DNA from: Kyrpidia spormannii
Lineage (GTDB): Bacteria; Bacillota; Bacilli; Kyrpidiales; Kyrpidiaceae
Assembly (NCBI RefSeq): GCF_002804065.1
Contig: NZ_CP024955.1
Span: forward strand, 1,550,001-1,614,000
Reading direction: 5' to 3'
Length of the DNA stretch: 64,000 nt
Shown: positions 24,683 to 50,509 of the stretch, piece after piece
Numbering within the stretch: position 1 is the stretch's first letter
Layout: every line of letters starts with the position of its first letter
Translations under genes and position numbers: made by a program
Notes under the pieces: generated by a model
What the model saw: only the letters and a program-made list of their open reading frames with translations
The model's database searches: none
What the model was told of the DNA's origin: nothing

Positions 24683-24710
24683 GTTGCATCGAAGGGAGGG
24701 GAGGGAAAAG

Positions 24711-25889
24711 GTGAGGGAAAGGGAACGTTGGGATTTGGAGCGGGTGGGACGCCGAATTTCTGAGCGGCGTAAAGCCTTGGGGTGGAGCCAGGAATTCCTT
24801 GCGGACCGGCTCGGGGTGAGCCGCCAGTTCATCGGCGCGCTGGAAGCGGGGCGAAGCTGGCCCTCTGTGCCCGTGGCCCTGGAGTTGGCCAGGGTTCTGG
24901 GCACGAGTGTGGAGGCATTGTTTGATCCCCAGGAGGCGGGGGATATCGTGTGGGGCGATCCGGAGGTTCGGGCAACTGTGGGAACCCGGGTGCGGTTCGC
25001 CCGGGTCGATGAACGTGTCGTGGCCTATCCCCTTTACGGGAGAGAGGCCGCGTCTTCGGCGGACGGCACCATCAGTCCGGCGGGCCGGGCGGAGGCGTTT
25101 TCTCCGGAGTGGGTGGAGGCGGCGGACCACACTGTGGCCGTAGCGGGGTGTGATCCGGCATTAACCGTGCTCCGGGATTGGGTGGCCCATCGCGGTCGCC
25201 CGCTCAGGGTGGCGACTTTGCCCTGGGGGAGCGAGCCTTCGATGCAAGCGCTTATCGGGGGTCGCGTGCATGTGGCGGGCGCCCACGGGACCGGGAATCT
25301 CCTTTCCTTGCCGGGCATGCAGGATGAGGTCGGTTTACCGGGAGGAGGGTTGGATGCGGGATCGGCCGAAGCTCACAGAGGCGAGTTACGAACAACACGT
25401 CAGTGGGCCCGGATTCGATTTGCAGCCTGGGAGGTTGGGATTGCAGTATTACCCGGTAATCCTCGCGGGGTGAAAGGGCTGGAGGACTTGTTCCGACCGG
25501 AGCTGCGCTGGGTGCGGCGGCCGGCGGGAACTGCTGTGGCACGGGTATACGCCCGGGTGACAGAGGATCGGCGGGAGCCGGTGACCTGGACGGCGGCGGT
25601 CGCAGAAGACCACCTCCGGGTGGCGGAAATGATCTTCTTCGGGATGGCCGATGCCGGTCTCACCACCTCCTTTGCGGCTCACGTCTTCGGACTTTCCTTC
25701 GTCCCCGTGGAGGTCCACCATTTCGATTTACTTGTACCTCGGCCGAGGCTGCGGGACCCACTGATCGGCGTTCTCGTCGATGTGTTGCGCAGTGGCGGGT
25801 TCCGCCAGCAGATGGAAGCGTTGTGGGGATATGATGTCTCCCACTTGGGAGACATGGATGAAATGGAGGCAGGGGAGGAACGTCCATGA
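24711..25889 (+). CDS. XRE-type regulator with a periplasmic-binding-protein-like sensor domain
   Basis: A 392-residue one-component regulator: an N-terminal Cro/C1 helix-turn-helix (about 10-70, LGWSQEFLADRLGVSRQFIGALEAGR) joined to a domain resembling type 2 substrate-binding proteins (VAVAGCDPALTVLRDW near 135, ASYEQ-free but with GIAVLPGNPRGVKGLEDL and HFDLLVPRPRL later), like the PBP-like domain found with molybdate genes. The GTG at 24711 has a strong AGGGGAGGG site. Its stop overlaps modA by four bases, so it should control, or respond to, molybdate transport. Ligand identity is inference. Confidence 0.82.
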   Translation: MRERERWDLERVGRRISERRKALGWSQEFLADRLGVSRQFIGALEAGRSWPSVPVALELARVLGTSVEALFDPQEAGDIVWGDPEVRATVGTRVRFARVDERVVAYPLYGREAASSADGTISPAGRAEAFSPEWVEAADHTVAVAGCDPALTVLRDWVAHRGRPLRVATLPWGSEPSMQALIGGRVHVAGAHGTGNLLSLPGMQDEVGLPGGGLDAGSAEAHRGELRTTRQWARIRFAAWEVGIAVLPGNPRGVKGLEDLFRPELRWVRRPAGTAVARVYARVTEDRREPVTWTAAVAEDHLRVAEMIFFGMADAGLTTSFAAHVFGLSFVPVEVHHFDLLVPRPRLRDPLIGVLVDVLRSGGFRQQMEALWGYDVSHLGDMDEMEAGEERP

Positions 25890-26728
25890 TGAGAATTGGC
25901 AGAGGGGGCATTCGCCTTGTCTTAGGGGTGCTTCTCCTCTTAGGATGGGTCGGTGTAGCCGGGTGCGGTTCGGCGCAACCGGCTGGCAGTTCCGCGGGTT
26001 CGGCGGAGAGCGGTTCGAACCAGGCCGCAGCTCTCAACGTCTTTGCCGCGGCTTCGTTGACGGCGGCGTTTCAAGATATCGGAAAGCGCTTCGAAGAACT
26101 TCATCCCGGCACCCGGGTTCACTTCAACTTCGGGGGCAGCCCCACGCTGTTGACCCAGATTGCCCAAGGGGCGCCGGCGGACGTGTTCGCGAGCGCAGAC
26201 ATGGCGAACATGGAAAAAGCCAAGAGCAAGGGCTTGGTGCAGGGGGACAAAATCTTCGCCAAGAATTCTTTGGTCTTGATCACGCCAAAATCAAATCCTG
26301 CCGGTATCCATCAGTATCAAGATCTCACCAAAGCCAAACGTGTTGTTTTGGGTGTAAAAGATCTGCCTGCCGGGAGTTATGGCCGCCAATCTTTACAAAA
26401 AGCGGATAAGGTATACGGGCCGGGATTTTCCAATGCGGTGCTTGGGCACGTCGTTTCTGAAGAGACGGATGTCAAACAAATCGTGAACAAGATTGCCCTC
26501 GGGGAGGGGGACGCGGCTTTTGTGTACGCCACAGATGTCGATGGGTCGGCGGGCTCCAAGGTCCAGATTATCCCGGTACCGAACCCGGTGAACGTGACGG
26601 CCACTTACCCCATGGCGGTGGTGACCCGGTCTGCCCACCCGGATCTGGCCGGTGAATTTGTCAATTTTGTCTTGTCGAAAGAAGGACAGGCCAGTCTGCA
26701 AAACCATCATTTTCTTCCGGCCTCATAA
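25886..26728 (+). CDS. modA: Molybdate-binding lipoprotein
   Basis: The extracellular binding protein of the molybdate/tungstate ABC importer. The 280 residues start with a lipoprotein signal (VLLLLGWVGVAGCG, Cys about 27), a Ser/Gly-rich linker and a ModA domain: AAASLTAAFQDIGKRFE, NFGGSPTLLTQIAQGAPADVFASAD and PAGSYGRQSLQ. The conserved Ser residues for the oxyanion are present. It overlaps the regulator upstream and is followed by modB, giving molybdenum supply for nitrogenase. Confidence 0.95.
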   Translation: MMRIGRGGIRLVLGVLLLLGWVGVAGCGSAQPAGSSAGSAESGSNQAAALNVFAAASLTAAFQDIGKRFEELHPGTRVHFNFGGSPTLLTQIAQGAPADVFASADMANMEKAKSKGLVQGDKIFAKNSLVLITPKSNPAGIHQYQDLTKAKRVVLGVKDLPAGSYGRQSLQKADKVYGPGFSNAVLGHVVSEETDVKQIVNKIALGEGDAAFVYATDVDGSAGSKVQIIPVPNPVNVTATYPMAVVTRSAHPDLAGEFVNFVLSKEGQASLQNHHFLPAS

Positions 26729-26763
26729 CGCGATGGAGTGCGAAAAGGGGAGGGGGGCAAGGG

Positions 26764-27651
26764 ATGAAATTCAGTCCATTCATGTCGAGCGGTTCGGCTC
26801 CACAAGGGCCGGACTCCCAGTTGCGCGCCTCCCCGGACGGTGGGGAGAAACGACGCTGGAACCCGCAGCTTATCTCTTCTCTCACCGCAGTCCAGAGCAG
26901 TTTTGGTCTCGTCCTGGTCTTGTTCTTATTCCTTCCGGTCCTGAGCCTGTTTCTTTCTGTGACGCCTTCCCGGTTTGTGTCCGCCTTGGGGCAGGAGGTG
27001 GTCAGGGACGCTTTAGGGCTAAGTTTCCGCACCAGCGTGATCGCCCTGTTTCTCGTAGTGCTCTTTGGTACTCCCTTGGCGCATCGTCTGGCGACGGGAA
27101 GGAAGTTTTTCGGCCAGGCCATAGTGGAGGCTTTGTTGCAACTGCCTTGGATTACACCGCCTGCCGTGGCGGGGTTGGCCTTGCTCATGGCCTTTGGCCG
27201 GGAGGGCCTTGTCGGCAGACTGCTGGCAGACTGGGGAATCGCACTGCCTTTTACCACCGCGGCTGTAGTGGTGGCCCAGGCTTTTGAGGGATCGGCCTTC
27301 TATGTACAGAGCGCCCGGCAGGCCTTCACCGGAGTGGATCGGCAGCTGGCGGAGGTGTCTCGAACTTTGGGGGCGGGGCCTTGGAGGACTTGGCTGCGTC
27401 TGGAGTTGCCCATGGCGCTGCCGGGTTTGGTCGCCGGGGCGGCGATGGCCTGGGCCCGGGCTTTGGGCGAGTTCGGGGCCACGATGCTATTCGCTGGCAA
27501 TATGCAAGGATTGACGCAGACGATGCCATTGGCGATCTATACGGTGATGGAGAAAGACATGGACGCGGCGGTGGCGATGGCGATCGTTCTGGTCATCGTG
27601 GGCTTCGGGTTGTTGTGGATGTTGTTTCGGTTGGGACAGCGAATGGCCTGA
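26764..27651 (+). CDS. modB: Molybdate ABC transporter permease
   Basis: The membrane subunit of the molybdate importer. The 295 residues contain about five or six membrane helices and the EAA-type coupling loop (EVSRTLGAGPWRTWLRLELPMALPGLVAG). An unusually long hydrophilic N-terminal tail of about 45 residues precedes the first helix; internal starts might remove it. Length is otherwise typical. It lies between modA and modC in one operon. Confidence 0.93.
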   Translation: MKFSPFMSSGSAPQGPDSQLRASPDGGEKRRWNPQLISSLTAVQSSFGLVLVLFLFLPVLSLFLSVTPSRFVSALGQEVVRDALGLSFRTSVIALFLVVLFGTPLAHRLATGRKFFGQAIVEALLQLPWITPPAVAGLALLMAFGREGLVGRLLADWGIALPFTTAAVVVAQAFEGSAFYVQSARQAFTGVDRQLAEVSRTLGAGPWRTWLRLELPMALPGLVAGAAMAWARALGEFGATMLFAGNMQGLTQTMPLAIYTVMEKDMDAAVAMAIVLVIVGFGLLWMLFRLGQRMA

Positions 27652-27699
27652 CGGGGGATCGGGGAACCCAGATTGCCCGGAGACAGGGGAGGGACGACG

Positions 27700-28404
27700 A
27701 TGTTGGAATTCGAATTGGAGATGCCGTTGGCCTCCTTTACGCTCCACGCGGAGGGGCGGGTGGATCCCGGGATCACGGCCGTCCTCGGGCCGAGCGGGGC
27801 GGGGAAAAGCACGTTGCTGCAATGTTTAGCGGGTCTGGCTCACCCGGTTTCGGGGCGCATTCGCTTGGGAGAGCGGATTCTGTATTCTTCGAACGGGCGG
27901 ATTTTCGTCCCACCCGAACACCGGGGAGTGGGCTATGTTCCTCAGCAGTACGCCCTTTTTCCCAAAATGACAGTGTTTCGCAATGTCGAATACGGGCTTC
28001 GAGCCCGGCGGGTCCCCAAGGCCCGGCGAGAGGTGAAGGTGGAAGAGATACTTCGCAGGCTGGGCATCGGACATCTGGCCAGGCGCCTCCCGGCTCACCT
28101 GTCCGGCGGGGAGGCCCAGAGGGTCGCCCTGGCCCGGGCACTGGTCATCGATCCCGATTATATCTTGTTGGATGAACCTTTGGCAGCCCTGGATCCAGAG
28201 ACCCGGGAGGCGGTTCGGAAGTTCCTTCGCGGCGTGTTGAGTGATGCGTCTTGCCCCGTCTTGTTGGTTACTCACGATGTGGAAGACGTGCGCCGGCTGG
28301 CGGACCGGGTGATGGTGATCCATGAAGGGCGAATCATTTTTTATGGTGGGGTTGAACAATGGGAGAGGCAGGGGATCCCTGCCTCTACCCGCCGAGTGGA
28401 GTGA
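27700..28404 (+). CDS. modC: Molybdate-type ABC transporter ATPase, short form
   Basis: The ATPase that drives molybdate import. Walker A GPSGAGKST, a Q-loop at YVPQQYALFP, signature LSGGEAQRVALARAL, Walker B ILLDEP and the switch His in LLVTHDVEDV are all present. At 234 residues it stops after the ATPase domain and lacks the C-terminal molybdate-binding (MOP/TOBE) domain of the usual 350-residue ModC. I chose the ATG at 27700, with GGGAGGGACG in front; a TTG at 27673 is possible. Confidence 0.9.
   Translation: MLEFELEMPLASFTLHAEGRVDPGITAVLGPSGAGKSTLLQCLAGLAHPVSGRIRLGERILYSSNGRIFVPPEHRGVGYVPQQYALFPKMTVFRNVEYGLRARRVPKARREVKVEEILRRLGIGHLARRLPAHLSGGEAQRVALARALVIDPDYILLDEPLAALDPETREAVRKFLRGVLSDASCPVLLVTHDVEDVRRLADRVMVIHEGRIIFYGGVEQWERQGIPASTRRVE
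28364..28386. terminator. Perfect hairpin between convergent modC and small ORF
   Basis: AGAGGCAGGG and CCCTGCCTCT pair perfectly over GAT, inside the last codons of modC. There is no T-run on either side, so it may stop or protect transcripts of the convergent genes less efficiently than a classical terminator. Confidence 0.4.
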
Positions 28405-30013: not shown

Positions 30014-30353
30014 GTTGAACGCCTCCTCTCCTATTGTCGTCTGTGATGTATCCTCTCGGGCAGCAACAACGTTTTTACATCAACTTGATGATAGCCTCTG
30101 GCAGTGGCAAAAGAAATCAGGGATTATCCCCATTTTTGTGTCGTCTCCAGCAAAAATCTCATCCGCCACGCCGGGAGACAGAGCCGTGGCGGAAGGAAAT
30201 TGGCATGTTTTCCTACAATCATGGTCCTCTGGTGCGATCGTACTGTAAGTCTGATCATAAGCCAATAAAAACGTAAGGATTTTTCCCGATATAGTAATTA
30301 TAATTAACGTGAACATAACACTAGGTGTGGAAAAGACCAATCTCAGGGGAGTG
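30014..30353. promoter_or_regulatory. Divergent control region between sqr and nifB
   Basis: No gene. For sqr (minus strand) TTGGCT (30260-30265), 17 bases, TACGAT (30237-30242) is a fair promoter. Downstream in its leader TCCGCCACG (30162-30170) pairs perfectly with CGTGGCGGA (30185-30193); five bases later come five T on the minus strand, like an attenuator. Palindromes CATCAACTTGATG (30078-30090) and GGGATTATCCC (30120-30130) may bind regulators. For nifB, TATAAT is at 30299-30304. Confidence 0.5.
30293..30309 (+). promoter_or_regulatory. GlnR/TnrA-like site over the nifB -10 region
   Basis: AGTAATTATAATTAACG is a near palindrome. Against the Bacillus GlnR/TnrA consensus TGTNA-N7-TNACA it matches six of eight fixed positions; the outermost two differ. 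It covers the TATAAT, so a bound regulator would block transcription. Confidence 0.45.
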
Positions 30354-31805
30354 ATGACGTTGAAAGGGTGCGAAAGGGTGGGGAGCTCAGTCTCGGCAAC
30401 CTGCGGCGTGGAAGGGAGCGCGTCCCGGGGGAGATCGGTGGAAGGGCTGTCTGAATCGATAATCGAGAAAGTTAAACGCCACCCGTGTTACAGCGAGGAA
30501 GCTCACCACTTTTTCGCCCGGATGCACGTGGCGGTGGCTCCGGCGTGCAATATTCAGTGCAAATATTGCAACAGGAAATACGATTGTATGAACGAAAGCC
30601 GGCCGGGTGTCACCAGTGAACTTCTTACTCCGGAAGAGGCGACGCAAAAAGTATTGGCGGTGGGATCGGTCATCCGCAATACCACCGTCGTGGGCATTGC
30701 AGGACCCGGGGATCCTCTGGCGAATCCCCGACAGACGTTCCGCACCTTCGAGTTGATCCGCCAAGCGGCGCCGGACATGAAGTTGTGTCTCAGTACCAAC
30801 GGTCTGGCGCTCCCCGACCACGTGGACACCATCCGAGAGCTGGGGATCGACCACGTGACCATCACCATTAATGCTGTAGATCCTGAAGTGGGCCAGCATA
30901 TCTATCGATACGTAACCTGGCAGGGCAAGTTGTTGACAGGTATTGAGGCGGCCCGGCTTCTGTTGGAGCGGCAGATGGAGGGCATGAGGGAACTGGTGAA
31001 AGCCGGAATTCTCATTAAAGTTAACTCTGTGTTAATTCCGGGTTTGAACGATGTCCATATGGCGGACATTTCCGCGGAGGTCAGGAAACGCGGAGCTTTT
31101 CTGCACAACATTATGCCGTTGATCATCGCTGACGGGTCCGATTTTCAAAAAGAAGGCCGCAGGGCGGCACTGCCGGAGGATGTGGCAGCGGCCCAGGAAC
31201 GGAGTGGCGCCGGTGATCGTCTCATGCGCCACTGCCGGCAATGCCGGGCGGATGCTGTCGGGCTGTTGGGAGAAGACCTCAGCGGCGAATTTACAAAGGA
31301 AAAATTCCGTCAGATGTCTGCTCAATATGATCCGGAACAACGTAAAAAACTGCACATGGAGCTGGATCGCCGGATTGAAAGGATGTCCGCCGCACGCAGG
31401 GCAGCGGCTGCCAATTTGCGGATTTCCAGAACGGATGAATTTCTGCCGTTTCGGGTGGCGGTGTCCACCTCCGGAGGGAACAAGGTGAATCTGCACTTCG
31501 GTCATACCAAGGAATTTCAAATTTATGAAGTCTCGCCTACGGGGCTCAAGTTTCTCACGGCTCGCAAAGTCGGGAATTATTGTTCGGGCATCGAAACCTG
31601 TGGGGAAGGAGAAGGGCGGATCGACGAGATCGCTCGCATGATTGCAGATTGCCGATATGTGTTGTGTACCCGAATCGGGCCCGGGCCGAAGTCGGCTCTG
31701 GAAGAGATGGGGATTCAGGTGGTTACGGGCTACGGGCCGGTGGAACAAGAGCTCTTTCGGTTGGCCGATCTGCATGCCCAGGATCAGGTTGGGATAGAAG
31801 CGTAG
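30354..31805 (+). CDS. nifB: Nitrogenase cofactor biosynthesis protein NifB
   Basis: A radical SAM enzyme that builds the 8Fe-9S-C core (NifB-co) of FeMo-cofactor. The 483 residues contain the SAM cluster motif CNIQCKYC at about 65-72, then GIAGPGDPLANP and further conserved Cys (HCRQCRADAVG). A C-terminal NifX/NafY-like domain follows (from about 375, LHFGHTKEFQIYEV). The start is uncertain: ATG 30354 is close to GGGGAG, and TTG 30360 has better spacing; a GTG at 30309 is also in frame. It heads the nif cluster. Confidence 0.95.
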   Translation: MTLKGCERVGSSVSATCGVEGSASRGRSVEGLSESIIEKVKRHPCYSEEAHHFFARMHVAVAPACNIQCKYCNRKYDCMNESRPGVTSELLTPEEATQKVLAVGSVIRNTTVVGIAGPGDPLANPRQTFRTFELIRQAAPDMKLCLSTNGLALPDHVDTIRELGIDHVTITINAVDPEVGQHIYRYVTWQGKLLTGIEAARLLLERQMEGMRELVKAGILIKVNSVLIPGLNDVHMADISAEVRKRGAFLHNIMPLIIADGSDFQKEGRRAALPEDVAAAQERSGAGDRLMRHCRQCRADAVGLLGEDLSGEFTKEKFRQMSAQYDPEQRKKLHMELDRRIERMSAARRAAAANLRISRTDEFLPFRVAVSTSGGNKVNLHFGHTKEFQIYEVSPTGLKFLTARKVGNYCSGIETCGEGEGRIDEIARMIADCRYVLCTRIGPGPKSALEEMGIQVVTGYGPVEQELFRLADLHAQDQVGIEA

Positions 31806-31867
31806 CATGCGGCGGCCTGTTGAAGGGGTGCCGGGTGACGGCCATAGGGGAAAGGCGGGGTTGTATC

Positions 31868-33043
31868 GTGAGAGTGTACTTCTGCGACTCTACATTGCGC
31901 GACGGAGAACAGGCCCCGGGAGTCGCTTTTCGCCGGGCGGAAAAAATCGCCCTGGCACAGCTTTTAGATGAAGTGGGGGTCGACGAAATTGAGGTGGGCG
32001 TCCCCGCCATGGGCGGACGGGAGGAAGAGGACCTGGCAGAATTGATCTCTCTGCCCATCAGAGCGCGGCGGGTGGCTTGGAACCGGATCAGGTGGGAGGA
32101 TATTGCCGCTTCCCTTCGATGCGGGGCCTCCCGCCTCCATATGGCTATGCCGGTCTCCGATGTCATGCTGCACAAAAAACTGTCCGTGTCCCGGGAGGAA
32201 GCCCTGTTTCAGCTCCTGGCGGTCGTCGAGGAAGCTTGTTCAAGGGACAGCCAGATTTCGGTGGGGTTTGAAGACGCCTCCCGGGCCGACCCCCTGTTTT
32301 TGTCCCGGGTAGTCAGGGCCCTGGAGCCCTACCCCATCCTTCGATTTCGGGTGGCCGACACCTTGGGAGTGCTGACTCCCTTTTCGACCCGGGAGTTGAT
32401 TTTGCGGTTGAAAGACGCAGGGGCGAAAAGCCTTGAGTTTCACGGCCACAACGACTTGGGATTGGCAGTGGCCAATACCCTGGCGGCTGTAGAAGCCGGG
32501 GCTGATTGGGTGGGCACCACCGTGCTCGGGTTGGGGGAGAGGGCGGGTAATGCGGCTTTTGAGGTGGTGGCTGTGGCCGTCCGGCGGTTGTTGGGCAAAG
32601 AGGTGCACATCCGGCTGCCTCTGTTGCGCCGCCTGGCCGAACAGGTGTCCGCAGCATCCGGGATGCACATCCCCCTCCAGGCCCCGGTGGTGGGTGACCG
32701 AGTATTCACCCACGAGTCGGGCATTCACGTCGATGGCGTACTCAAATCCCCGGAAACCTACGAACCCTACCCTCCGGAGTGGGTCGGGCGGGCGCACTCG
32801 GTGGTGTTCGGGAAACATTCGGGACGAAATGGGCTGCGCCGAATTCTGGAAGGGCGCGGGTACCTCCCCACCGCCGACCAACTCGACGCTCTTCTTGAGG
32901 AAATCCGCCTTCTGGCCGTCGTCCAAAAGCGATTTCTCAGCGAAGAGGCAGTGTGCCGGTTATACCGCGAACTGTGCAAGTCTTCCAAGGACGGGCAAGC
33001 GGTGGCCGACCGGCTTCGGAATGAAGAAAAAACGGCCGGGTGA
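31868..33043 (+). CDS. nifV: Homocitrate synthase NifV
   Basis: It condenses acetyl-CoA and 2-oxoglutarate to homocitrate, the organic ligand of FeMo-cofactor. The 391 residues show CDSTLRDGEQAPGVAF at the start (metal and keto-acid binding), FHGHNDLGLAVANTL and GLGERAGNAAFE, and a C-terminal part typical of NifV, not of isopropylmalate synthase. I chose the GTG at 31868, before which lies AAAGGCGGGG; the long frame upstream overlaps nifB. Position second in the cluster, right after nifB, is unusual; in Paenibacillus nifV is the last gene. Confidence 0.93.
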   Translation: MRVYFCDSTLRDGEQAPGVAFRRAEKIALAQLLDEVGVDEIEVGVPAMGGREEEDLAELISLPIRARRVAWNRIRWEDIAASLRCGASRLHMAMPVSDVMLHKKLSVSREEALFQLLAVVEEACSRDSQISVGFEDASRADPLFLSRVVRALEPYPILRFRVADTLGVLTPFSTRELILRLKDAGAKSLEFHGHNDLGLAVANTLAAVEAGADWVGTTVLGLGERAGNAAFEVVAVAVRRLLGKEVHIRLPLLRRLAEQVSAASGMHIPLQAPVVGDRVFTHESGIHVDGVLKSPETYEPYPPEWVGRAHSVVFGKHSGRNGLRRILEGRGYLPTADQLDALLEEIRLLAVVQKRFLSEEAVCRLYRELCKSSKDGQAVADRLRNEEKTAG

Positions 33044-33069
33044 ACCCGGGCGGAAGGAGCGTGACGACG

Positions 33070-34236
33070 ATGTCGGAAACGTCGGTATTCTATTATCTCG
33101 ACTATGCGGCGACCACGCCTCCCTCCGATTCGGCGATCCAGAGAATGACACAGGTTATGGAATCTTACTGGGGCAACCCCTCTTCCCAGCACGGGCGAGG
33201 TGCCCTGGCGCGAAAGATCGTCGAGGAAGCCCGGGAAGAGGTGGCGGGCTGGTTGTCCTGTCGCCCCTCTGAAGTGATCTTTACATCTGGCGGAACCGAG
33301 TCTAACCAATTGGCCCTGTGGGGGACGGTGTCGGGAATGCGGGCCCGGGAGGCGTACCCTCGGCGGCGACAGATTTTGCTGTCAGCCGTCGAGCACCACT
33401 CGGTCATCGCCTGTGCGGCTGCCCTCCGCCAACAAGGGTATGAGGTGCAGTTTCTCCCGGTGGACCGCCAGGGCCGGGTATCCCCCGATGTGTTGGCGCA
33501 AGCCCTGTCTGAGTACACGTTTTTGGTCAGTGTGCAGTGGGTGAACAGCGAGGTGGGAACCGTTCAACCGATCAAGGAGTTGGCACGCCTTTCCCGAGAG
33601 GCGGGGGCGCTGTTTCACACAGATGCCGTCGCGGCCGCGTCAGTCTTCGATGTCGCCGCCGCGTGTTCGGAGGTTGACCTTCTGTCGATTTCTGGCCACA
33701 AAGTGTACGGCCCCCAAGGGACAGGGATCCTCTTTCTGAGGCGGGGCACGCCGTTCCGATTTCCTTTTGGTCCTGGGAGGCAAGAGCGCGGGAGACGGCC
33801 GGGCACCGAGAATGTCCCGGGGATTGCGGGGTTGGCGGAAGCCGTTCGGGGACTTCGAAGAGAATACCAACTCAGGGGTGTGCACCTGGAACAGACGCGG
33901 AGACGCCTATGGTCGGCCCTGAAAATCCGCAAACTCGGGCTGGTGCGCTTCACTCCCCAGCAGGAGAGCCATCCCGGCATCCTGGCGGTGGGGGTTCCCG
34001 GCGAAAATGGGGACGGGCTGGTGGTCGCTTTGAGTCAGAGGGGCCTACAGGTGTCCTCGGGATCCGCCTGCCGCTCCGGGGAAGGGCAACCCTCCCCGGT
34101 GCTCCTGGCGATGGGGTTCCCGGAAGATGCGGCGATGGGCATGATTCGCTTCAGTTTCGGACAGGAGCTATCTAGTCACGCTGTAGAGGATATCGCAGAA
34201 CGATTTGCAGCCACTTTGCACGCCGTTCGGGTTTAA
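33070..34236 (+). CDS. nifS: Cysteine desulfurase (NifS type)
   Basis: A pyridoxal-phosphate enzyme that takes sulfur from cysteine for Fe-S cluster assembly. The 388 residues have LDYAATTPP near the N-terminus, the PLP region EHHSVIACA and HTDAVAA, the PLP lysine in SGHKVYGPQGTG, and the active-site Cys in SSGSACRSGEG. The ATG at 33070 is chosen from GGAAGGAGC; GTG 33040 and 33061 are in frame. No nifU is in the window, so the scaffold is presumably a general one (for example SufU). Context in the nif cluster supports the name. Confidence 0.92.
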   Translation: MSETSVFYYLDYAATTPPSDSAIQRMTQVMESYWGNPSSQHGRGALARKIVEEAREEVAGWLSCRPSEVIFTSGGTESNQLALWGTVSGMRAREAYPRRRQILLSAVEHHSVIACAAALRQQGYEVQFLPVDRQGRVSPDVLAQALSEYTFLVSVQWVNSEVGTVQPIKELARLSREAGALFHTDAVAAASVFDVAAACSEVDLLSISGHKVYGPQGTGILFLRRGTPFRFPFGPGRQERGRRPGTENVPGIAGLAEAVRGLRREYQLRGVHLEQTRRRLWSALKIRKLGLVRFTPQQESHPGILAVGVPGENGDGLVVALSQRGLQVSSGSACRSGEGQPSPVLLAMGFPEDAAMGMIRFSFGQELSSHAVEDIAERFAATLHAVRV

Positions 34237-34282: not shown

Positions 34283-35035
34283 GTGAATGTGGGATTGCTG
34301 AGCGCGAGAGGTCTTCTCACCCGGATTGTAACAGCAGTGGCAGAGGAAGACGGGCACATGGTGTTCAACAGCCGGTATTGGTCCGTCTTTGAAAAGAGTG
34401 CCCGAAACGGCTTGTTTGATTTGTTGATTTTTGACTGTCCGGGGACATGTCCTTTTCCGGACATCCGCTGCCTGATCTTGACCCGATCGAAAAAAATTCC
34501 CACCGTGGTCATCGGGCCCTCCCGGGAGTCCCGGATGGGGAAGCATCTGAACCGGCAAGGCTCGCAGGTACTGCCCGATCCGTTTTATCCGCAGGAGCTT
34601 CTCGATATGGTTCGTCACGTCGCGGAAAACGTCAAAGTTGTCCCCCCGTCCTGCCGACCCTCCCCGGATACTTCTCATGCGATGGGCGTGCAGGGCACGT
34701 TGGTGGAACTGTCCCCCGGGCTGCTCCTCGACAAGTCTTTCCGGTGCCTCTGGTCGGGCGGGTTGCGGATCGATCTCTCTCCCCGGGAGTACCGGTTGAT
34801 GGAATGCCTCCTGGCGCGAGAGGGCCAAGTCGTGGATTATGACACGTTGTTGACGGAGATTTGGGGTGCCGACAAGGGGGGATACGACGGTCTGTACGTG
34901 GTGGTCCGCTCCTTGAGAAAAAAATTGCATGTACATCCTGGTCGGGCCTGTACGATTGAGAACAAGTATGGCCACGGCTATCTGTTCAGTCGATCGGTCT
35001 TGGAACGAGAGAACTGCCATTCTTCAGGCACGTGA
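34283..35035 (+). CDS. OmpR/PhoB-type winged-helix regulator inside the nif cluster
   Basis: The 250-residue protein ends in a PhoB-type winged helix (about 165-245: LSPREYRLMECLLAREGQVVDYDTLLTEIWG, VVVRSLRKKLH, GHGYLF). Its first 120 residues look like a receiver domain that has lost clear signature residues, although DLLIFDCPG could carry a phosphate-accepting Asp. No histidine kinase is near. I chose the GTG at 34283 after GAGGGTG; GTG 34274 is also possible. It lies between nifS and nifH, so control of the nif genes is likely. I know no standard nif regulator of this type. Confidence 0.8.
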   Translation: MNVGLLSARGLLTRIVTAVAEEDGHMVFNSRYWSVFEKSARNGLFDLLIFDCPGTCPFPDIRCLILTRSKKIPTVVIGPSRESRMGKHLNRQGSQVLPDPFYPQELLDMVRHVAENVKVVPPSCRPSPDTSHAMGVQGTLVELSPGLLLDKSFRCLWSGGLRIDLSPREYRLMECLLAREGQVVDYDTLLTEIWGADKGGYDGLYVVVRSLRKKLHVHPGRACTIENKYGHGYLFSRSVLERENCHSSGT

Positions 35036-35057
35036 TTGTTTGCACAAGGATAGAAAT

Positions 35058-35095
35058 CTGACAAAACAGGTTCTCATATGTAATGATATATAACG
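35058..35095 (+). promoter_or_regulatory. nifH promoter region with GlnR/TnrA-like site
   Basis: TGTAATGATATATAACG (35079-35095) fits TGTNA-N7-TNACA except for the last base. CTGACA (35058-35063) lies before it and could be a -35, with TAATGA 17 bases later inside the site. The nifH start is 65 bases downstream. No sigma-54 promoter was seen. Confidence 0.55.
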
Positions 35096-35105
35096 ACTAT
35101 GGTGA

Positions 35106-36071
<966 letters not shown>

Positions 36072-44550: not shown

Positions 44551-44691
44551 TCATTATGTTTTGATGAAAATGTGGTATAGATCTCGGTGAAACAGTTTTC
44601 TGAATAAATACGCAGACCCCATATTTGGGGGATTTAAAGGTTGCGACGTATTCAGTTGTTCGGTATAACGGACCAAGAGGGGGGAGTTGAG

Positions 44692-44949
44692 TTGAAAATA
44701 TTTATACGCATAGCCCACGCAATTCTATCGGTACTTAGCGCTTCGCTGTTTACCGGGTGTTCAACAATCAAAGAGCCCCGGCCTCAGCCGACGTTCACGC
44801 CGTTGCCCTCTCATCCATCTTTCGTAGTCGTGACAAAATATGATATCCACTCACCTACGGTCAGTGCGAAAAAAGTGACGGATCCAAATATGGTTCGGCA
44901 TATCGTTAGTGAGATCGACCAGAGCGGGCTGTACATTGCTTCACGATGA
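44692..44949 (+). CDS. Small lipoprotein of unknown function
   Basis: An 85-residue product starting at TTG 44692, preceded by GAGGGGGGAG. A signal with lipobox LFTGC puts the Cys at about 23, followed by a Pro-rich linker and a short acidic/basic domain. Base composition is richer in A+T than the neighbouring nif genes. The stop overlaps the next ATG. It may be the first part of a two-piece or frameshifted gene together with the next ORF. I know no family. Confidence 0.6.
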   Translation: MKIFIRIAHAILSVLSASLFTGCSTIKEPRPQPTFTPLPSHPSFVVVTKYDIHSPTVSAKKVTDPNMVRHIVSEIDQSGLYIASR

Positions 44950-45314
44950 TGCTGCATGACGTACCCGCGGTCGTCAATCTCTTAGGCGGGCCTCAAGCGT
45001 GGGTGGACTGGGAGCAGACGGTCCAGAACGCGGAATGGAAGCTGACCGTTTCCCCGGACCAACGACCGGGAAAATACGGCCGGTATGATCTTCAAGTCCA
45101 GTATACGGGTCACGAGGCTATTCACGGTGTCACGGTGACTTTCGATAACTCTTTAACAGTCTCTTCAGGCGCCGGCGCCAATTCCCCGGTTGTGCTGAAA
45201 TTACCGGACCTCGTTTTCCCGCTGGAAACAAGGTCAGTGCCGGTCAATGTAACCTGGGTGAAAGGTCAAACAACCGAATCTGCCGCGTTTACGCTTCACC
45301 CGAAAAATGGGTGA
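44946..45314 (+). CDS. Unknown beta-rich protein
   Basis: A 122-residue frame that overlaps the lipoprotein by ATGA. The sequence looks like a beta-sandwich (WKLTVSPDQRPGKYG, YDLQVQYTGHEAIHGVTVTF, VPVNVTWVKGQ) and has no signal of its own. As a separate protein it would stay in the cytoplasm, which is odd for such a domain; a frameshift splitting one lipoprotein of about 205 residues is a good alternative. Confidence 0.5.
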   Translation: MMLHDVPAVVNLLGGPQAWVDWEQTVQNAEWKLTVSPDQRPGKYGRYDLQVQYTGHEAIHGVTVTFDNSLTVSSGAGANSPVVLKLPDLVFPLETRSVPVNVTWVKGQTTESAAFTLHPKNG

Positions 45315-45352
45315 AAGACCTTGAAACGTATTGCCCCGCTTTTTTAGTTTAC

Positions 45353-45366
45353 ATAATGTACATTAT
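45353..45366. promoter_or_regulatory. 14-base perfect palindrome
   Basis: ATAATGTACATTAT lies 39 bases after the unknown beta-rich gene and about 200 before the DsbA-family gene, next to a T-run (CGCTTTTTTAG). It could be an operator. Nothing else in 45315-45570 looks like a plus-strand gene. Confidence 0.3.
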
Positions 45367-45395
45367 CGGACTCAAAATGGGCCTTCAAAAAAGCC

Positions 45396-45590
45396 TCACC
45401 TTTCCCTCCCCCGCTGGATCAATAGCCAGAGAACAAGGATTGCCAATCCGGTTGTTATTGTCGGGCAACTGCGCTCCATCTTGCCACCCGTCCGCAATTT
45501 GGGTAAAGTGAAGCTATCGAGAAGAAAGTGCCCTAAGTATACCCGGGGCATAGCCAGAAACGGGGGTGCGATGTTCACCATGCGAATCAC
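45396..45590 (-). pseudogene. Possible remnant of a YdjM-like membrane hydrolase
   Basis: On the minus strand a 64-codon frame contains YLGHFLLDSFT, reminiscent of the metal-site helix of YdjM-type membrane hydrolases, and ends in a hydrophobic LAILVLWLL. It is far shorter than the family (about 170 residues or more). It could also be chance. Confidence 0.2.
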
Positions 45591-46176
45591 TTCTTATTTC
45601 GATTATAATTGCGTGTTTTGTTATATCGGTCGATATCGTCTGCGGGAGGCCGCAAACAGGGCCGGTGTGTCCATCGAATGGGTGGCCTGGGCAATGCCCG
45701 AGGATGCTTCTCCCCCGCCAAAACCGGATGACTACCGGGAGGGCGTGAAGCGCTATGTCCAGGCGGCTTCTGAAGATTTGGGCCTCGACATCCGCCTCAT
45801 GAGGGCAGTTGACACCCAAGATGCCCTCACCGGTATGTATTACGCCCGGGAACAGGGCGTTGAGGAGCCGTATCACCAGCAGGTCTTTGATGCCCGGTTT
45901 TTGAAAGGATTGGATGTGTCGGACCGCAAAGTTCTGACAGAATGTGCCGAAGCCGCCGGGCTGTCCGGGGATGGCTATTTGAATGCTTTAGATCATGAGA
46001 AGTATCGCATACAGTTACAGGCGGATTTCCAGCGCGCGGCACATGCGCGAATCTGGACCATCCCGGTTTATGAAGCGGATCACCGCCGGTTGGAGGTTCA
46101 TCACTTTGATCAGTTGCCCACCGCCGATGGGCTGACCGAATGGATCCAACTCATCGGAACGAAAGCGGAAGGTTGA
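45571..46176 (+). CDS. DsbA-family (FrnE-like) thioredoxin-fold protein
   Basis: The 201-residue protein starts with a beta strand and the redox motif FDYNCVFCYIG (CVFC), then a helical insertion and a final thioredoxin half ending in HFDQLPTADGL, as in cytoplasmic FrnE-like DsbA proteins. It lacks a signal peptide. The usual cis-Pro loop appears as TIPVYE (normally GVPTF), a less typical sequence. The ATG at 45571 follows GGGGGTGCG closely; 45580 is an alternative. The function is likely thiol-disulfide exchange or glutathione-type transfer. Confidence 0.82.
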   Translation: MFTMRITSYFDYNCVFCYIGRYRLREAANRAGVSIEWVAWAMPEDASPPPKPDDYREGVKRYVQAASEDLGLDIRLMRAVDTQDALTGMYYAREQGVEEPYHQQVFDARFLKGLDVSDRKVLTECAEAAGLSGDGYLNALDHEKYRIQLQADFQRAAHARIWTIPVYEADHRRLEVHHFDQLPTADGLTEWIQLIGTKAEG

Positions 46177-48671: not shown

Positions 48672-50012
48672 TCAATACAGGTTCAAGTACTGGTCCCGCT
48701 CCCAGGGATGGACGGCGGTGCGGAACATATCCCACTCAATCAATTTCGCCTCGACAAAATGTGTAAACGCGTGTTCCCCCAGGGCATTGACGATGACTTC
48801 ATCCCGGCTCAGCTCATCCAGAGCTTCTTTCAAACTGGCAGGCAGCGTCAAAATCCCAGCCTGCACGCGTTCGCTTTCCGTCATAACGTAAATGTTGCGA
48901 TTGACCGGCTCCGGCAAGGGCATGCGGTTGCGGATTCCATCCAGTCCCGCAGCCAGCATGGCCGCCAAGGCGAGGTACGGATTGGCCGACGGGTCTGGGC
49001 TGCGCACTTCGATCCGGGTGCTCAAGCCCCGGGAAGCGGGCACTCGCACCAAGGGACTCCGATTCTGGAAGGACCACGCGATGTAAACCGGCGCCTCGTA
49101 TCCTGGCACCAAACGCTTGTAAGAGTTCACCGTAGGGTTGGCGATGGCGGTGAACGCCCGAGCATGGGCGAGGATTCCGGCCAGGTACTGTTTCGCCGTT
49201 TCACTCAAGCCAAACTCGTCCCGTTCATCGTAGAACGCATTCTCGCTCCCCTGGAACAGGGATTGATGGGTGTGCATGCCGGATCCGTTAATCCCGAACA
49301 CCGGTTTTGGCATGAAGGTGGCGTGCAGACCGAGCTGCCGGGCGATCGTCTTGACCACCAACTTAAAGGTCATGATATTGTCCGCCGCCGATACGGCATC
49401 GGCATATTTAAAATCGATTTCATGCTGGCCAGGCGCCACCTCGTGATGGGAGGCCTCGATTTCAAAGCCCATCTGTTCCAAGGCCAATACGATCTCCCGG
49501 CGGCAGTTTTCCCCCAAGTCTACCGGAGCCAGATCAAAGTATCCCCCTTGATCGTTCACTTCGGTGGTGGGATTTCCGGACTCGTCCATCTTAAATAAGA
49601 AAAACTCCGGTTCCGGCCCGACGTTCATGGTGGAGAAACCCATGTCCTGGGCTTGGCGCAGGACTCGTTTGAGAATTCCCCGGGGATCTCCGGGGAAGGG
49701 AGTGCCGTCCGGAAGGTAAATATCGCAAATCAGCCGGGCCACTCGCCCTCCGTCTCCCCCGATCCAGGGAAATATTAGCCAAGTGTTGAGATCCGGATAC
49801 AAATACATGTCCGATTCCTCGATGCGGACGAAACCTTCGATCGAAGAACCGTCGAACATGATCTTGTTGTCCAGGGCTTTGGGCAACTGACTCACCGGGA
49901 TTTCGACGTTTTTGATAATACCGAGCAAGTCAGTAAATTGGAGGCGAATATAACGGACGTTCTCTTCTTTGACCATTCGCATAATGTCTTCACGTGTGTA
50001 CTGGCGTGGCAT
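48672..50012 (-). CDS. glnA: Glutamine synthetase, type I
   Basis: It makes glutamine from glutamate, ammonia and ATP, assimilating fixed nitrogen. The 446 residues show [37 protein letters not shown] and [13 protein letters not shown]. The length is that of the GSI-alpha form of Firmicutes, which is regulated by feedback and by binding GlnR instead of adenylylation. It lies 77 bases after glnR on the minus strand, with a terminator-like hairpin between. Confidence 0.98.
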
Positions 50013-50089: not shown

Positions 50090-50509
50090 TTAACGGAAAA
50101 ACCGGGAGAGCTCGCCTTGGATCAGCGACGCCGGCCTACCCGGTCGCTCCAATTGGGCGATGAGCTCTTTTTTCAGCAACTCGTGCAAGTCCCGGTCCGT
50201 GAGGTTGCGATTCCCTTCCACCGCAAGTCGCTCTTCCTTCGGAAGGTCTTCGACATCAGTGGGTTTTTCGGCCGGTCCCAAGGCCTTTTTAATCCCCGCG
50301 ATATTCAGACCTTGATCGATCAGTTTCTTGATCTCGAGCAGGCGTTCGACGTCCCGGAAAGAAAAAAGGCGCTGATTGCCCTTGGTGCGAATGGGTTGAA
50401 TCAATCCCTGCTGTTCGTAATACCGAATCTGCCGAGCGCTCAACTCGGTCAACTTCTGTACGATCCCGATGGGAAAGAGGGCCAAATTGCGCCGCACATC
50501 ATCTGACAT
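50090..50509 (-). CDS. glnR: MerR-family nitrogen regulator GlnR
   Basis: GlnR represses glnRA and other genes when nitrogen is plentiful, activated by feedback-inhibited glutamine synthetase. The 139-residue protein has a MerR winged helix (FPIGIVQKLTELSARQIRYYEQQGLI, then NQRLFSFRDVERLLEIKKLI) and a C-terminal tail of about 50 residues, where GlnR binds glutamine synthetase. Gene order glnR-glnA is as in Bacillus. Two GlnR-like sites lie just upstream of its promoter. Confidence 0.95.
   Translation of the reverse strand: MSDDVRRNLALFPIGIVQKLTELSARQIRYYEQQGLIQPIRTKGNQRLFSFRDVERLLEIKKLIDQGLNIAGIKKALGPAEKPTDVEDLPKEERLAVEGNRNLTDRDLHELLKKELIAQLERPGRPASLIQGELSRFFR

Follow-up and report, generated by a model that had tools for sequence, protein, structure and literature searches.

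The open reading frame at 34283..35035 (+ strand), labeled REG here together with its product, encodes an orphan, atypical regulator of the OmpR/PhoB family with 250 amino acids, as judged from its translation, its Trans_reg_C domain, and its orthologues. It lies in the window, by which we mean the whole stretch of 64,000 nucleotides of Kyrpidia spormannii DNA analyzed (C1:1550001-1614000 of G000, a genome of 3.35 Mb in a single contig). REG occurs solely inside the nif clusters of a few Bacilli and, since it is confined in this way, it is probably an undescribed nitrogen-fixation switch. REG belongs among the atypical orphan response regulators, a class already known; what is new is its tie to nif. 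That REG regulates nif is very likely. The best overall explanation is that REG is a transcription factor specific to nif and independent of phosphorylation, which works together with GlnR at the promoters of nifB and nifH, and we hold this reading as a whole with moderate confidence.

In Bacilli, nif control is thought to rest on GlnR. Diazotrophic Paenibacilli do without NifA, and the atypical orphan OmpR/PhoB regulators discussed below are not known to be tied to nif. The literature searched on nif clusters with OmpR-type regulators, and on Kyrpidia with nif, holds no report of such a regulator. Within K. spormannii, strain FAVT5 uses N2, in tests under low oxygen of no more than 5%; strain EA-1 carries nif genes and shows no growth on N2 (PMC7248562).

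The REG gene, its neighbors, and its distribution

The gene runs from a GTG at 34283 to a TGA at 35035. It starts 46 nt past a nifS-like cysteine desulfurase gene (33040..34236, + strand; best match TIGR03402 NifS, E 9.8e-100, under the equivalog cut-off) and ends 124 nt short of nifH (35160..36071, + strand; TIGR01287, over the cut-off). Upstream on the same strand are the ORFs of nifB (30309..31805; TIGR01290, 591 bits; the true start is probably further downstream) and of nifV (31580..33043, with homology from near 31870; TIGR02660, E 2.5e-133, slightly below the cut-off). The original prediction, made from the letters alone, had placed the ORF between nifS and nifH, and both its position and its neighbors are verified. 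It had missed a GlnR encoded in the window (50090..50509, - strand; translation and PF13411), upstream of and adjoining glnA (48672..50012, - strand), as well as a GlnR-type box at the nifH promoter. This GlnR is of the MerR type, and an OmpR-type GlnR could be ruled out here. No protein of the genome scores over the TIGR01817 cut-off for NifA; the only matches are to the shared sigma54-activator domain.

Other genes around nif deserve mention. At 24684-28404, next to nif, an HTH/PBP-like regulator is followed by a solute-binding protein, a permease, and an ABC ATPase; together they are probably an operon for molybdate uptake that has a regulator of its own. Downstream of hesA, two small adjoining ORFs (44641-45314) have no Pfam match, one of them with a lipoprotein-like start, and they are followed at 45331-46176 by a DsbA-like protein with a thioredoxin fold.

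REG is a real gene, since it is 60% and 50% identical to its orthologues and diverges by codon position as coding sequences do (0.34/0.24/0.62). Between G000 and G003, dN is 0.313 for the N-terminal domain and 0.313 for the DNA-binding domain. Such equal and slow divergence of the two domains means that the receiver is under selection and is not decaying.

Orthologues were searched in 61 relatives, 398 genomes of the class, and 398 genomes of the phylum. Across these, full-length REG is present only in G000, G003 (60% identity), and G004 (50%), which span two genera of one family plus one further family. No other full-length copy is found in the 395 other class genomes (E<=1e-25) or the 397 other phylum genomes (E<=1e-20). 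A plasmid search gave no match at E 1e-15. In contigs, the single sequence gave zero relatives, and an alignment of three rows recovered the known MAG (L035) and, apart from it, only two response regulators of the ordinary kind.

In all three genomes, REG is directly upstream of nifH and downstream of nifB-nifV-(nifS), and the order nifB-V-(S)-REG-[promoter]-nifHDKEN is conserved; in Paenibacillus-type nif clusters, nifB immediately precedes nifH. The suggestion of a possible new nif regulator thus survives the comparison of orthologue contexts, with none outside nif clusters. REG is absent from 14 of the 17 class genomes with nifH over the cut-off. In a NifH tree, the REG-bearing clusters branch beside the Paenibacillus-type nif clade and, with midpoint rooting, do not form one clade.

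Two genomes of the same genus, G001 and G002, have neither nifH nor REG. Identity of G001 to the window is 95% as far as 30313, a stretch that takes in the nifB promoter with its composite element (see below). Past this break the sequence is unrelated and carries genes for integrase and for transposases of the IS type (L068, G001:C1:1680000-1699000), and the main match to the right flank of the window is found some 30 kb beyond. With the left flank kept and followed by unrelated sequence, nif and REG were most likely lost together.

The nifH and nifB promoters

The nifH promoter contains a GlnR-type box, TGTAATGATATATAACG (35079..35095, + strand), with one mismatch to the GlnR consensus TGTNAN7TNACA. 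It resembles site II of P. polymyxa, TGTAAGGGAATATAACG, which binds GlnR there; consensus and site are both from PMC6191146. Boxes of this type are present at nif promoters of all three REG genomes, with perfect consensus matches at G004 nifH and G003 nifB. It is almost certain that GlnR, too, acts at the nifH promoter, so that REG is not the sole regulator of nif. At nifB of the window, the box is half lost: in G000 and in G004, the second half of the palindrome is gone while AGGATT is kept, which suggests that another protein may use part of the box.

Upstream of the nifH box is a second element, TCTGA (35057..35061, + strand), a candidate half-site for REG identified by promoter alignment. 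The same alignment gives at nifB the composite TCTGA-N17-CGTAAGGAT (30250..30280, + strand). TCTGA precedes the box by exactly 22 bp at both nifH and nifB of G000 and of G003, and G004 nifH has TCTTA. In G004 nifB, the composite matches poorly and the register was set by the match of AGGATT and the -10. The composite at offset -22 scores 4.67 of 5, a value that none of the 20,000 column permutations or the 69 rotations reaches. In whole-genome searches, the sole matches of WCTKA-N17-YRTMAKGAT in G000 and G003 are those at nifB and nifH; in G004 it matches at nifH plus two chance-level places, and in G001 at the nifB remnant alone; the reversed pattern has no match in G000 or G003. As the pattern was built from these same promoters, the informative part is the absence of other matches. 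A search for further targets with two mismatches allowed returned mainly background. The limitation of the composite to these two promoters lends support to the idea of the original prediction that REG may act at the nifH promoter.

A putative -10 is found 27 bp past the start of the box in all nifH and nifB promoters: TATCAT at 35106..35111 for nifH and TATAAT at 30299..30304 for nifB in the window (both + strand). At the -35 position, none of the nifB or nifH promoters has a TTGACA-like hexamer. The CTGACA of the nifH promoter was considered as a plain -35 and rejected, being not conserved in the nifB promoters and without a properly spaced -10 in all.

We would put the TCTGA-containing element as the REG site at close to an even chance. 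TCTGA could belong to another factor, for example as an extra GlnR half-site, the site of an Fnr-like protein, or a contact made by RNA polymerase, with REG binding elsewhere, such as at the AGGAT half-box; this is quite possible, if short of an even chance. TCTGA is one base off the GlnR half-site TGTNA, and nifB promoters with a broken GlnR palindrome still have AGGAT. On the other hand, no second GlnR half follows TCTGA, and GlnR-only nif promoters lack the element: 12 nifB upstream regions of REG-less Bacilli have no TCTGA-type element 22 bp before the GlnR box. Two observations from REG-less genomes can be recorded. Upstream of nifB in G080 (L063), GGAATTCTAAAACGG directly precedes a perfect GlnR box; it resembles GGAATTCTTATTAAAACGG of G004 and is about one helical turn closer, by chance or as a remnant. 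Upstream of nifB in Paenibacillus-type genomes (L056-L067), a conserved AAACGGAAACATGATA-like motif immediately precedes the upstream GlnR box in the majority of these nif promoters, as a second element there.

As to the sign of regulation, we lean toward REG being an activator, and the lack of a TTGACA-like hexamer at -35 makes this probable. That REG would instead be a repressor, closing nifB and nifH in response to oxygen or to a shortage of clusters, appears rather unlikely: a REG bound to the AGGAT half-box would indeed overlie the -35 position, but promoters that all lack a consensus -35 favor a need for activation.

It is distinctly unlikely that GlnR alone controls nif, with REG regulating other genes or riding in the operon as a lineage-specific accessory. 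The glnR gene is present, its boxes are found at the nif promoters of the three genomes, and GlnR by itself serves as both activator and repressor of nif in Paenibacillus, as seen in P. polymyxa (PMC6191146); an extra activator is thus not required in principle. Against this, REG is linked to nifH in 3/3 genomes across families with its two domains equally constrained, and the promoters carry an extra element that is missing from GlnR-only nif promoters. Further, a box over the -35 suits repression and would leave activation unexplained.

A receiver domain with a degenerate active site

The original prediction had described REG as a PhoB-type winged helix with a degenerate receiver and no kinase partner, and these features are borne out. 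The OmpR/PhoB winged-helix DNA-binding domain covers residues 162-235 (34766..34987, + strand; PF00486 Trans_reg_C, 57.1 bits vs. a cut-off of 26.2, E 1.9e-15) and is the sole Pfam match of REG; SaeR is among its fold matches (TMt 0.85). The N-terminal 126 residues searched alone against Pfam match no family even at E 10. By profile alignment and structural modeling, residues 1-118 (34283..34636, + strand) are a degenerate receiver domain. With hhalign, the N-termini of the three orthologues align over about the whole domain with eight canonical receivers (probability 92%, E 5e-7). An AlphaFold model from 24 rows (mean pLDDT 81), the check proposed with the prediction, has a receiver-like (βα)5 fold of ten alternating strands and helices, and superposes on the KdpE receiver with Z 17.9 and an rmsd of 1.9 over 114 residues. 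The 24 rows included canonical response regulators, which bias the model, so that hhalign is the more independent test of the fold. Modeling with two rows gave a poor result (pLDDT 47), which was set aside. In the lists of fold matches, missing families were not counted as evidence.

Canonical phosphorylated response regulators have an active site formed by an acidic pair, an Asp, a Thr/Ser, and a Lys, from which REG departs at most positions. In alignments with canonical response regulators, S7 and A8 (codons 34301..34306, + strand) replace the Mg2+-binding acidic pair, and D99 (34577..34579, + strand) replaces the conserved lysine in a column where 22 canonical proteins have K in 21 and R in 1. 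Both substitutions are common to the three orthologues, where the Thr/Ser position, 78, is G or S. The sole active-site residue left is D51, present in all three orthologues and aligned with the phosphoacceptor in 22/22 canonical relatives. From receiver chemistry, the loss of the acidic pair and of the lysine makes canonical phosphorylation unlikely, and REG likely works independently of phosphorylation. No HATPase_c match exists in the 64-kb window, and many HATPase proteins are encoded elsewhere in the genome. REG has the two marks of an atypical orphan response regulator: its phosphorylation site is degenerate, and no partner kinase is encoded close by.

An ordinary two-component regulator, with D51 phosphorylated by a small phosphodonor or by a histidine kinase encoded at a distance, would account for the aspartate kept in 3/3 orthologues in line with all 22 canonical phosphoacceptors and could draw on the HATPase proteins elsewhere in the genome, but it is very unlikely given S7/A8 and D99 in 3/3, a loop after D51 that is two residues shorter than in canonical receivers and bears cysteines, and a window without a kinase.

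Codons 51-63 (34433..34471, + strand) read D-C-P-G-x-C-P-F-x3-R-C, in which the D is Asp51, with C52, C56, and C63 at the position of the phosphorylation loop. In canonical receivers this stretch reads D-x-x-x-P-x-x-D-G, and the 22 canonical response regulators compared have no Cys in these three columns. A fourth cysteine, C245, is in the C-terminal tail (35015..35017, + strand). All four are invariant in the three REG proteins, an invariance that with only three orthologues is suggestive rather than strong. Conserved cysteines thus occur in both the receiver and the DNA-binding part, as in HP1021-like proteins. REG matches no known metal-site signature. The four cysteines suggest that the receiver became a redox or metal/iron-sulfur sensor. 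Sensing through cysteines is a tentative proposal, somewhat below an even chance, and the fuller version, in which the former receiver serves nif alone as a redox sensor or as an iron-sulfur sensor with cysteine ligands and GlnR adds nitrogen control at the same promoter, is unlikely to hold in all its parts.

Proposed role and comparison with known systems

In the proposed mechanism, REG would be the last gene of a nifB-nifV-(nifS)-REG operon. Its product would bind the composite at the promoters of nifB (its own operon) and nifH (nifHDKEN...), adjoining the GlnR box and overlapping it in part, with no need for phosphorylation, and would aid RNA polymerase where the -35 is poor. GlnR would supply the nitrogen signal, with repression under nitrogen excess, and the cysteines of REG would couple promoter control to redox or cluster status. 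Nitrogenase would then be made only under reducing conditions or with an adequate supply of clusters. Encoded by the cofactor operon (nifBVS), REG would let nifHDKEN be switched on only if the cell is reducing and cluster assembly is working. If true, this adds a new type of nif regulator and one more example of a receiver remodeled into another kind of sensor. A kinase-free regulator dedicated to nif, with a defined candidate operator, would make oxygen or cluster-supply sensing directly testable in Kyrpidia-like thermophiles.

REG resembles HP1021, HP1043, CosR, RitR, and ChxR, in which a receiver fold and a DNA-binding domain are kept, the phosphorylation residues are lost, and there is no kinase partner; the structures of RitR, CosR, and HP1043 are among its fold matches. 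Unlike the HP1021-type orphans, REG retains D51 while losing the acidic pair and the lysine. HP1021 and RitR work through cysteines, and HP1021 is a precedent for a response regulator acting as a redox switch (PMC8266642). Among the relatives aligned here, the D-C-P-G-x-C-P-F...R-C motif is present in REG only.

The actinobacterial GlnR of OmpR type is a nitrogen regulator of the OmpR family that works without a kinase. The GlnR of M. tuberculosis is a fold match to REG; for actinobacterial GlnR (8hig), the sequence similarity is limited to the winged helix (profile positions 153-239) and the gene context differs. The best sequence match among solved structures is RpaA, from receiver α5 through the winged helix (E 3.9e-12). 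Cyanobacterial RpaA/RpaB carry regulatory thiols and are another precedent for a redox switch (PMC9321951) but, unlike REG, have intact phosphorylation motifs and genes not linked to nif.

For nif control itself, a close system is that of Paenibacillus, with a box of the same MerR-type GlnR kind. There, a single nifBHDKENX-hesA-nifV operon has two GlnR sites around its promoter and no REG, whereas in the window nifH has its own promoter, with one box over the -35 and the TCTGA element.
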